64,000 nucleotides of DNA from Gammaproteobacteria bacterium (GTDB lineage Bacteria > Pseudomonadota > Gammaproteobacteria > UBA6429 > Thiohalophilaceae). The position numbers were made by a program, and so were the translations under genes. Numbering within the stretch: the first letter of the stretch is position 1; every line of letters begins with the position of its first letter. The notes below the pieces were generated by a model. The model did not search any database. It saw only the letters and a list, made by a program, of their open reading frames with translations, and was not told the DNA's origin. The stretch is from positions 558,001 through 622,000 of the forward strand of contig WGLP01000002.1 of NCBI GenBank assembly GCA_016125505.1. Reading direction: 5' to 3'. Below are positions 33,801 through 46,494 of this stretch, piece after piece.

Positions 33801-33918
33801 AGTGCGTATCTTTCAAATCAGTGGTTTAGAAAAGCTGCTGAGCGACTCTTGGTATCAGGTTTGTGTATTAGCAGTTTACCATATAGACTTGTCGGGAATA
33901 CCAGAGGTTTTTTTCAAG

Positions 33919-34323
33919 ATGGCAATGGCATTTAAAGATATGGATCATGACGAATGCGTCTCCCTGACACGCTCCATCATGGCAATTCTGGACGGGTGGG
34001 GACTCAACGGCGCGGCAATCATGGGTGTGCTTGCCATTCCCGAAGGTGTGCCCGTGCGTGCCTTGCGCCGCTATCGTGAAAACACCCCGTTCCCCGATGA
34101 CGCTGCGGTGTATGAACGCGTCGAACACATCATCGGCATCGCCGACGCACTACGTACCACTTATCCGCACAATCCGCCCATGGGTGTGTTATGGCTGCAA
34201 CAGAACAACCGGCGTTTTCAGGATCGTGCGCCGCTGCAGTTGATCGTGGAGAATGGTTTGCAGGGTTTGCTGGAGGTGCGCAAGTATCTGGATTGTTCGT
34301 ACGACTGGCACGTCAATCCCTGA
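33919..34323 (+). CDS. Orphan MbcA/ParS/Xre-type (DUF2384) protein
   Basis: A 134-residue protein with the two-part form of Xre/MbcA antitoxins: an N-terminal helical, Xre-like domain (about 1-70, GLNGAAIMGVLAIPEGVPVRALRRY) and a C-terminal DUF2384 segment (NRRFQDRAPLQLIVENGLQGLLEV). Such proteins normally neutralise RES-domain toxins, but no toxin gene is adjacent. The start is ATG 33919 or 33925; the frame is open upstream to 33802. It ends exactly where palindromic repeat A begins. Confidence 0.78.
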   Translation: MAMAFKDMDHDECVSLTRSIMAILDGWGLNGAAIMGVLAIPEGVPVRALRRYRENTPFPDDAAVYERVEHIIGIADALRTTYPHNPPMGVLWLQQNNRRFQDRAPLQLIVENGLQGLLEVRKYLDCSYDWHVNP

Positions 34324-34465
34324 GAACTTGTTTAAAAACTACTGCGCTTGCCATAACTGCGTTGTAAAAGAACTCAAAATCCTCATTTACTCTCGTGTAA
34401 ACTCCGGTTTTTCGTTCTTTTACGCCTTGTTCTGGCTGCGCTCGTAACGTTTTTAAACAAGTTCT
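34323..34465. repeat. Palindromic intergenic element, copy A
   Basis: A 143-base near-perfect long palindrome fills the gap between convergent genes. Outer arms AGAACTTGTTTAAAAAC (34323-34339) and GTTTTTAAACAAGTTCT (34449-34465) pair over 17 bases. A 44-base core (34372-34415) is shared with copy B (39 of 44 bases equal by hand count). The stem flanking the core is TAAAAGA/TCTTTTA (34365-34371 and 34416-34422), with GTTG before and CGCCTTG after. It could act as a bidirectional terminator or a mobile palindrome. Confidence 0.82.
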
Positions 34466-43589: not shown

Positions 43590-44804
43590 TTAGTGGTCGC
43601 CGTAATGGCGCTCGATATAGCGTTCGACGATGCCCTGGAATTCCTGCGCGATGTTGTCACCCTTGAGTGTTACGGTCTTTTCACCGTCTTCGTAGACCGG
43701 CGCCACGGGTTTTTCGCCGGTCCCCGGCAGGCTGATGCCGATATTGGCGTGCTTGCTTTCGCCCGGACCATTCACCACGCAACCCATGACCGCCACGGTC
43801 ATGTTCTCCACGCCCTGATACTGTTTACGCCAGGCGGGCATGTTGTGGCGCAGGAACGTCTGGATATCACGCGCGAGTTGTTGAAAGTAGGTGCTCGAGG
43901 TGCGGCCGCAACCGGGACAGGCGATCACCTGCGGCGTGAACGAACGCAGGCCCATGGATTGTAAAATCTCCTGGGCCACGATGACTTCCTGGGTGCGATC
44001 CCCGCCGGGTTCCGGTGTCAGTGAGATGCGAATCGTATCGCCGATGCCCTGTTGCAGTAGGACCGCCAGCGCGGCGGCGGAGGCGACGATGCCCTTGCTG
44101 CCCATGCCGGCCTCGGTCAGACCAAGGTGCAGGGGAAAGTCGCACTGGTGCGCCAGGCGTTGATATACGTTGATCAGGTCCTGCACGCCACTCATCTTGA
44201 CCGAGAGGATGATCTTGTTATGCGCCAGGCCGATGGCCTCCGCCTGGGCGGCACTCTCCAGCGCGGAGGTGATCATGGCGTCGTACATGAGGTGTTGCGA
44301 ATCCAGTGGCTCGCTGCGCTGTGCGTTTTCATCCATCAGTCGCGCCAGGACGGCCTGATCCAGGCTGCCCCAGTTCACACCGATGCGCACCGGTTTGTGG
44401 TAGCGCACGGCAAATTCAATAAGGGTAGAGAATTGTTCGTCGCGCTTTTTACCGCGGCCGACGTTGCCCGGGTTGATGCGGTATTTGTCCAGGGCCTCGG
44501 CGCAGGCCGGGTGCTCGGTCAGGAGCTTGTGGCCGTTGAAATGAAAATCACCAATGAGGGGGACATGACAGCCCTGTTGCAGCAGGCGTTCCTTTATATA
44601 GGGCACCGCCTGGGCGGCCTCGCTGGAGTTGACGGTGACACGAACCATTTCAGAACCGGCGCGGGCCAGGGCCAGGGTCTGCTGGACGGTGGCATCGATG
44701 TCCGCGGTGTCGGTATTGGTCATGGACTGCACGACCACCGGGTGATTGCCTCCCACCGTGACGTTACCGATCTTCACCGCCACGCTGTGATGTTTGGCTG
44801 GCAT
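43590..44804 (-). CDS. ispG: (E)-4-hydroxy-3-methylbut-2-enyl diphosphate synthase (IspG)
   Basis: Iron-sulfur enzyme of the MEP isoprenoid pathway; uses flavodoxin or ferredoxin to make HMBPP from MEcPP. The 404 residues form a TIM barrel ([27 protein letters not shown]) and a C-terminal reductase-like domain with the [4Fe-4S] Cys in CPGCGRTSS and [17 protein letters not shown] precedes the ATG. Slightly longer than E. coli IspG (372). Reads leftward, divergent from the methyltransferase gene. Confidence 0.95.
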
Positions 44805-44937
44805 AAGGTGTTGGCCTTCCTGTTTTGCAATAAGGGCGCGATTTTACCATAGCGCGCCTGCGGAGACAGGCGAGAACCCCGGGACAAAAACACCTATAAT
44901 GTGCGCCTTTGTTTCCAGCGGGTGTAAAGGAGCGGCC

Positions 44938-45816
44938 ATGGCCAAAGATAAGAAGCACAAGAAAAACAAGCACAAGGAAAAAGCCAAGGACAAGTCGGGG
45001 CCGACGATGGCGGAAACCGCCGACCGCCACCTGATGTACCAGGCCGCGGTGCAGGCCGCCGATGTGGAGGTCGAATTTCTGGACAAGATCTTCCGTGAGA
45101 TTCGTGGCCGCCAGCCGCTGAGCTTTAAGGAAGATTTTTGCGGTACGGCCCTGCTCTCGGTGGAGTGGTGCAAATCCGATCCCAAACGCACGGCTATCGG
45201 TGTGGATATCGACGAACCGACCCTGAAGTGGGGCGGGGAACACAACCTGCAACCCGCCGGCAGCGACGTCGCCAGCCGGGTTACCCTGTTGCAGAAAGAC
45301 GTGCGCGAAGTACTGGAACCCAAGGTGGATATCACCTGCGCGTTCAACTTCAGTTTTTGTATTTTCAAAACCCGCGGCAGCCTGCGTGAGTACTTTACCA
45401 AGGCGCGCGCAGGGCTGAAGGATGACGGGATGCTGGTGCTGGACATCTTTGGCGGCACCGAATGCATGGATACCCTGGAGGAAGAGACCGAACTGGAGGA
45501 CGTGTCAGGCACCTATGTCTGGGAACATGCCAAGTTCAATCCCATCACCAATGAAATCCTGTGCCATATCCATTTTGAATTCCCGGATAAATCGCGCATG
45601 GAGAAGGCCTTTACCTATGACTGGCGCCTGTGGTCGGTACCCGAACTGAAGGAGCTGCTGGAAGAGGCCGGTTACAGCAAGGTACGCGTGTACTGGGAGC
45701 AATTTGAAGAGACCGATGATGATGACGATTATCTGGAAAGCAACGGGGAATTCCTCGAGGCTACCGAGGTCGAAAATCAGGAGTCGTGGCATGCATATAT
45801 CGTTGCGGAAAAATAA
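44938..45816 (+). CDS. Class I SAM-dependent methyltransferase with Lys-rich N-terminus
   Basis: A 292-residue methyltransferase with unknown target. After a Lys/His-rich leader (KDKKHKKNKHKEKAKDK) comes the SAM fold with FCGTALLSVEW (motif I), IGVDIDEPTLKW (motif II) and CAFNFSFCIFK (motif IV). ATG 44938 is chosen, with AAAGGAG 8 bases upstream. The basic leader may bind nucleic acid or acidic protein. The C-terminal tail is highly acidic (EETDDDDDYLES). Repeat copy B follows the stop by 6 bases. Confidence 0.85.
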   Translation: MAKDKKHKKNKHKEKAKDKSGPTMAETADRHLMYQAAVQAADVEVEFLDKIFREIRGRQPLSFKEDFCGTALLSVEWCKSDPKRTAIGVDIDEPTLKWGGEHNLQPAGSDVASRVTLLQKDVREVLEPKVDITCAFNFSFCIFKTRGSLREYFTKARAGLKDDGMLVLDIFGGTECMDTLEEETELEDVSGTYVWEHAKFNPITNEILCHIHFEFPDKSRMEKAFTYDWRLWSVPELKELLEEAGYSKVRVYWEQFEETDDDDDYLESNGEFLEATEVENQESWHAYIVAEK

Positions 45817-45822
45817 TGCAGC

Positions 45823-45944
45823 TAAAACTCGCTGAAGCCGCGCTGGCTGTGTTGGAGCGATACTCAAAATGCTCATTTACTCATATGTAAACTCCGCTTT
45901 TTCGTATCGCTCCGCCTTGCCATCATCGGCTTGATCGAGTTTTA
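45823..45944. repeat. Palindromic intergenic element, copy B
   Basis: A 122-base palindrome. Outer arms TAAAACTCG (45823-45831) and CGAGTTTTA (45936-45944); an adjacent CTGAAGCCG/CGGCTTGAT pair with two mismatches; the core (45862-45905) is 39 of 44 equal to copy A. The core-flanking stem is GAGCGAT/ATCGCTC (45855-45861 and 45906-45912), different from copy A yet complementary; GTTG and CGCCTTG are shared. Confidence 0.82.
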
Positions 45945-45966
45945 AAAACAGACAAGAATTTTAGTT

Positions 45967-46494
45967 ATGACTGATCAGGATCGAGAGGCTGAACAACAGC
46001 GCCGCATGGGCGGCTGGATGTATATCGGTTTCTGGATCCTGTTGTTGGTGTTTGTCGCAATGTTCTTCTCGCGCTGGCTGGATCACCAGCGCAATCCCAA
46101 TCAACAGGTGGCGTCACGCATTGATGGCGATGGCGTGCGCGAGGTGGTGCTCAAGCGCAATCGCATGGGGCATTACAATGTGACCGGTGACATCAATGGC
46201 CATAGCGTGGAGTTTATGCTGGACACCGGCGCCACCGACATCGCAATCCCCGCGTCCATCGCAACCGACCTCGGCCTGCAACGGCTCGGCCGCATGCAAT
46301 TTGAAACAGCCAACGGCATTGCCGAGGGCTACGCGACGCGCCTGCACGAGGTGCGTGTCGGCAATATCGTGTTGCACGATCTGGCGGCCAGCATCAATCC
46401 CAACATGAACGACGATATCGTGCTGCTGGGCATGAGTTTTCTCAAGAAGATCGAATTCACCCAACGCGGCGATAGCCTCATCCTGCGCCAATAA
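45967..46494 (+). CDS. Retropepsin-like aspartic protease, TIGR02281-type
   Basis: Membrane-anchored clan AA aspartic protease of 175 residues. One membrane helix (about 17-36) is followed by a single retropepsin-like domain with active-site DTGA (Asp86) in FMLDTGATDIA and a conserved LLGMSFLKK end. A dimer would be needed for catalysis. Its periplasmic orientation and substrate are unknown; ancient families of this type are widespread in proteobacteria. It is separated from the previous gene by repeat B and converges on the chemoreceptor. Confidence 0.87.
   Translation: MTDQDREAEQQRRMGGWMYIGFWILLLVFVAMFFSRWLDHQRNPNQQVASRIDGDGVREVVLKRNRMGHYNVTGDINGHSVEFMLDTGATDIAIPASIATDLGLQRLGRMQFETANGIAEGYATRLHEVRVGNIVLHDLAASINPNMNDDIVLLGMSFLKKIEFTQRGDSLILRQ

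Follow-up and report, generated by a model that had tools for sequence, protein, structure and literature searches.

The window, the whole stretch of 64,000 nucleotides analysed here, contains two palindromic elements, copy A and copy B, each of which lies directly at the end of a gene. The gene upstream of copy A (33802–34323) has a TGA stop codon whose final base is also the first base of the copy, which is flanked by convergent genes. Copy B adjoins the TAA stop codon of its upstream gene (44794–45816) and is followed by a gene that begins at 45967 and runs the same way. Both copies have the anatomy given in the original prediction: copy A reads GTTG, TAAAAGA, core, TCTTTTA and CGCCTTG, copy B reads GTTG, GAGCGAT, core, ATCGCTC and CGCCTTG, and 39 of the 44 core positions are identical in both (89% over 44 bases by BLAST). 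The outer arms of copy A form the perfect 17-bp inverted repeat that had been described, and its limits could be retained, whereas the family model makes copy B slightly longer than first proposed (Table 1). The outermost arms of copy B have decayed. Neither copy shows a clear target-site duplication, Rfam gives no match at gathering score within the window, and copy A lacks a terminator-like site, that is, a GC stem followed by a T run.

Table 1. Positions in the window of copies A and B and of their parts.
Feature	Position	Strand	Remarks
Copy A, whole element, 143 bp	34323..34465	+	Model R1: 163 bits, E 4.5e-37
Copy A, left outer arm AGAACTTGTTTAAAAAC (terminal inverted repeat)	34323..34339	+	Perfect 17-bp complement of right arm
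Copy A, right outer arm GTTTTTAAACAAGTTCT	34449..34465	+	Perfect 17-bp complement of left arm
Copy A, middle stem, left, TAAAAGA	34365..34371	+	Sequence free, pairing kept
Copy A, middle stem, right, TCTTTTA	34416..34422	+	
Copy A, 44-base core, including a small apical hairpin (TTTAC..GTAAA)	34372..34415	+	Near-invariant over 77 copies
Copy A, CGCCTTG	34423..34429	+	Conserved asymmetric element facing GCGTTG (34359-34364)
Copy B, whole element by family model	45813..45955	+	R1 match 112 bits, E 4.2e-24 (G000:C2:603813-603955)
Copy B, middle stem, left, GAGCGAT	45855..45861	+	
Copy B, conserved core	45862..45905	+	
Copy B, middle stem, right, ATCGCTC	45906..45912	+	
Copy B, CGCCTTG	45913..45919	+	

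How widespread is this element? With the family covariance model, R1, the host genome yields 20 confident copies (E <= 3e-15), and BLAST with copy A returns 18 further family copies or fragments across its 4.16 Mb (E < 1e-3), copy B included. The resemblance of copies A and B is thus well beyond chance. With R1, copies are present in 21 of 40 relatives, reaching 46–53 per genome, and in the class as a whole 149 of 369 genomes and 121 of 272 genera carry the family. A broader, more diverse model, R2, is positive in 125 of 398 genomes of a phylum sample, some of them beyond the class with 95–101 bits. Among named genomes, the exact core occurs for instance in Gallionella, Sideroxydans, Pseudomonas, Amphritea and members of the Chromatiaceae, Ectothiorhodospiraceae and Granulosicoccaceae. 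The presence of similar cores in other gammaproteobacteria, suggested in the original prediction, is confirmed. Copy number differs greatly among related genomes.

The near-constant part of the family consists of the core, CTCAAAATGCTCATTTACT-N3-GTAAACTCCGCTTTTTCG, and the flanking GCGTT/GCCTTG. Fifteen oriented host copies could be aligned without difficulty. Their mean pairwise identity is high in the core (0.87) and in GCGTT/GCCTTG (0.91), but falls to 0.51 for the outer-arm pairs and to 0.58 for the middle stem. Several copies depart from the standard form. A long form in G008 (L084-L089) and G016 (L102, L106-L109) carries an apical-loop insert of ~52 bp, which is related between the two genera and holds small palindromes, among them GCCCATCCATGGGC and GTACATCCATGTAC; L139 is a similar-looking long form. 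At L218 (G008:C21, around 82991), the insert unit has expanded to a tandem minisatellite array within the element. L208 (G008:C34:303350) is broken by an apparent fragment of an IS3-family transposase, and L219 (G008:C24:18689) is a miniature of 57 bp that has the two ends and no core, possibly a deletion derivative. In the host genome, L011 and L017 have other inserts in the core, one of them rich in CATCC-loop palindromes, and L019 is a half element.

The variable stems differ in sequence but continue to pair, as had been noted for copies A and B. For the 15 best host copies, RNAalifold gives 45 pairs, 31 of them with changes on both sides; covariation is 0.484 compared with 0.171 after shuffling (0 of 500 shuffles as high), and sliding by a single base reduces pairing from 91% to 42–48%. 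The middle stem is 97% paired in these copies despite its low identity. In 77 copies from many genera, aligned by a structure-carrying model that favours this structure, 92.8% of positions pair, 42 of the 45 pairs are doubly changed and covariation is 0.600 versus 0.155 shuffled, with helices 1–2, the terminal inverted repeats, 89–94% paired. Because slid controls of the same copies are only 34–48% paired (40–48% for a one-base slide), the fit to the model alone does not produce this effect. Neither a core confined to the window nor a loss of covariation over more copies, the two outcomes that would have spoken against the original prediction, was observed.

What keeps the arms complementary? 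The original prediction regarded the structure as selected; the pairing is indeed kept, and selection is a possible cause, but in DNA hairpins template switching from arm to arm can also maintain complementarity. Such switching at replication would convert mismatches, so that stems drift and stay complementary through self-correction of the hairpin and not through structural selection. Correction of quasi-palindromes is established in E. coli. Self-correction predicts a free drift of stem sequence, which is seen, and near-identical copies change symmetrically on both arms, for example L016 compared with L018; in L082, a one-base deletion is paired. However, it should also erase the asymmetric internal loops and the T.G pair (69 of 76 copies), yet both persist across the class, and therefore at least the loops are selected. 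We consider self-correction a serious possibility for the stems, somewhat less likely than not. Covariation by itself is no proof of RNA function, and the family clearly exemplifies DNA hairpins whose sequence changes while their pairing stays.

Target-site duplications are present elsewhere in the family, and copies with different ends carry different duplications. Copies with ends GGGCACCTC.. (the GGGCACCTCTAAAAATT type) have exact 4-bp AT-rich duplications in 13 of 26 cases, where 1.6 are expected and 300 shuffles give 6 at most. For ends CAGGCTGTTGAAAAAC, 4-bp duplications occur in 11 of 45 and 10 of 45 copies at two registers (1.9 and 1.5 expected), and are mostly YTAR, namely TTAA/CTAA/CTAG/TTAG. 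Seven copies with ends TYCTACTGTGTCAC (TYCTACTGTGTCACAAA) have 4-bp NTAN duplications; at ends GAACCTRTCTCAAAAT, the edge shows TA only, which is inseparable from part of the repeat. An empty site is available in E. coli, where BLAST with copy A matches 293 of 5,426 genomes. Both of the two matches inspected lie between hemE and nfi, and the copy in strain 7/2 scores 88 bits (E 1e-20, R2). Reading the boundaries by eye from both sequences, the filled site is C(TAA)GAGCCTGG...CCAGGCTC(TAA)GG and the empty site of K-12 is CTAAGG, so that the insertion duplicates TAA, the stop codon of hemE. The family thus has the features of a miniature inverted-repeat transposable element (MITE): it is short (143 bp) and multi-copy, lacks a transposase gene, ends in inverted repeats, duplicates its target site and can be compared with an empty site. 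A MITE-like unit was among the roles proposed originally, and of these it is the one that the terminal repeats, the duplications, the E. coli empty site and the match to IS5-family ends described below support.

Judging from their sequence, at least two of the end types match the ends of IS5-family elements. The CAGGCTGTTGAAAAAC arm type equals the terminal repeats of such elements in Paraburkholderia/Rhizobium, and the GGGCACCTCTAAAAATT arm type those in Roseovarius/Sulfitobacter. In Paraburkholderia phymatum, CTAA/CAGGCTGTTGAAAAAC...CAACAGCCTG/CTAA encloses a 379-aa IS5 transposase, and Rhizobium leguminosarum has a complete element with the same CAGGCTG end on both sides; in Roseovarius indicus, TGTA/GGGCACCTCTAAAAATT...GAGGTGCCC/TGTA likewise encloses an IS5 transposase (slashes mark the element edges). 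Among plasmids, Roseovarius and Sulfitobacter records match the end query with 20–21 identical bases, two of these matches lying at the edge of an IS5-family element whose opposite edge carries the end in inverted form. The CAGGCTG end matches ten rhizobial or burkholderial records, none of them inside annotated genes where annotation exists. The transposases of the Paraburkholderia, Rhizobium and Roseovarius elements all score well above the NF033581 cut-off of 140 bits; those tested reach 270–304 bits and contain DUF772 and DDE_Tnp_1. In genomes that bear the element, NF033581 elements have related ends, GGAACCTCTGATNAAT, which resemble the element arms of L136 and L150 and are flanked by YTAR-like duplications. 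At the upstream edges of L268 and L269, IS5 elements of the CAGGCTGTTG type directly adjoin TGACACAGTAGTA-like sequence that resembles the other end type, TACTGTGTCA, as if an IS5 had inserted at the edge of another element.

A search for a transposase with matching end sites gave a divided answer: the match, over 18–21 identical bases, is found in other taxa and not in the copy-rich genomes searched or in the host. Pattern searches of the copy-rich genomes G008, G146 and G354 retrieved no autonomous insertion sequence with exact element ends and no transposase between paired ends, only ends of the element itself and an IS3 fragment that interrupts one copy. In the host genome, NF033581 transposases are absent. 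Because of this, the link between the element and IS5 rests on end sequence and duplication type and not on co-residence. No partner was found in plasmids for ends GAACCTGTCTCAAAAT and TTCTACTGTGTCACAAA, nor was one found for ends GAACCTRTCTCAAAAT; a search with PF13586 in seven genomes yielded one broken copy, and direct BLAST of copy A against plasmids gave no match. Between pairs of copies 1–3 kb apart lie housekeeping genes and not transposases.

Could the element instead be primarily a structured RNA, a 3' UTR hairpin that serves as RNase III site, mRNA stabiliser or terminator and keeps its pairing for that function? The strong covariation would fit, as would the position of the copies at a median of 14 bp past the upstream stop codon, and transcripts of Correia and ERIC repeats are known RNase substrates (PMC2229807, PMC10969869). 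For 85 copies with enough flanking sequence, with neighbour genes called by a simple ORF rule, 51 lie between tandem, 24 between convergent and 10 between divergent genes, and within tandem pairs 28 have the same and 23 the opposite orientation, which is no bias. This random orientation and the missing terminator signature at copy A argue against an RNA regulator, and so do the blank Rfam result in the window, the insertion demonstrated by target-site duplications and the empty site, and the variation in copy number between related genomes. These observations fit insertion that is tolerated at gene ends better than they fit an RNA device with a set orientation. The copies may affect mRNA, as ERIC and Correia repeats do (PMC10969869), but we consider RNA as primary function, and with it the terminator that was proposed, unlikely. 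A REP-like nature, in which an HUH (Y1/RAYT) transposase would mobilise the hairpin as single-stranded DNA, is more improbable still, and we give it little weight. The hairpin with conserved loops and mismatches and its intergenic position would suit this possibility; the 4-bp and TAA duplications do not, since Y1/HUH transposition is not known to leave a target-site duplication. In addition, REPs are described as 20–40 bp long (PMC3733652), compared with 143 bp here.

Taken together, both palindromes are probably copies of a ~143-bp non-autonomous, non-coding MITE that has spread through the Proteobacteria and is moved by IS5-family transposases in trans. In this mechanism, IS5-family (DDE) transposases would recognise the outermost 15–20 bp, the terminal inverted repeats, and insert the element at short AT-rich targets, often stop codons because TAA and TAG lie within YTAR targets. 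Between the ends lies the conserved hairpin core. The core is fixed, and the middle stem and terminal repeats are variable yet complementary, so that one core is joined to several unrelated end types. We infer that copies swap ends with one another and depend on the core to proliferate, for instance as an extruded hairpin or as a site for a host protein. More speculatively, and with less confidence than we place in the MITE itself, the core may be an exchangeable chassis that repeatedly gains different IS5-family terminal repeats on both arms at once and so borrows whichever transposase is available. Correia, the E. coli hemE–nfi insertion and possibly ERIC would then be local descendants of a Proteobacteria-wide superfamily, with the core carrying a structure-dependent signal for spread.

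In open PMC papers, we found no description of the family or of a link between ERIC, Correia and IS5, and a 2007 review noted that similarities between the ends of bacterial repeats and of insertion sequences had mostly not been sought or found (PMC2229807). How Correia and ERIC repeats are mobilised has been an open question, for which the family supplies concrete candidate transposases. The element shares with IS5-family elements (NF033581, DUF772 and DDE_Tnp_1) two end types, identical over 15–18 bp, and the type of duplication (CTAA, TGTA); unlike them, it carries its own hairpin core and no transposase. YPAL/RU-2 of Yersinia is also a palindromic MITE, of 168 bp, but inspection of its published sequence by eye does not reveal the conserved core (PMC2759123).

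Similar to the family, ERIC (IRU/RU-1) of enterobacteria is an intergenic palindrome, of ~127 bp, with TGCGTT..GCCTT flanks, and its core TCACTTACTTATGTAAGCTCC resembles TCATTTACT..GTAAACTCC of the family; in contrast, its arms are fixed in sequence. R1 and R2 both place their best match in the locus exactly on an E. coli ERIC, at 18–19 bits (R2 18.3), which is not significant next to the 17.2 bits that a coreless hairpin reaches as the best match within 50 kb of K-12, and the model score does not place ERIC in the family with confidence. The resemblance of the cores makes kinship only suggestive. For ERIC, Correia and a Cupriavidus copy, R2 was run without filters on local stretches, and the ERIC and Correia query sequences were confirmed against records.

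The Correia repeats (nemis, CREE) of Neisseria are likewise palindromic MITEs with paired terminal repeats, laid out as GGCGTTG, a GTACT-N-GTAC core and CGCCTTGTCCTG. R2 detects Correia at its exact position (31.7 bits, E 3e-6), and also a Cupriavidus copy that has the Correia core and other arms (41 bits); Correia is therefore a likely relative of the family. Two PLSDB "N. gonorrhoeae plasmids" of ~2.17 Mb (NZ_CP119140.1, NZ_CP119142.1) look like misfiled chromosomes, since they are this large and each has 40 or more Correia matches. Correia repeats differ from the family in their length of 107 bp, the absence of the variable 11-bp middle stem, their fixed 24–26 bp ends TATAGTGGATTAAATTTAAA and their restriction to one genus, and none of the family copies listed has these Correia ends, which go with a TA duplication. 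The short (107 bp) and long (155 bp) Correia forms differ by ~50 bp (PMC2229807), which parallels the ~52-bp insert in the long form of the family. The family would in this way link the Correia elements of Neisseria to a much wider family.
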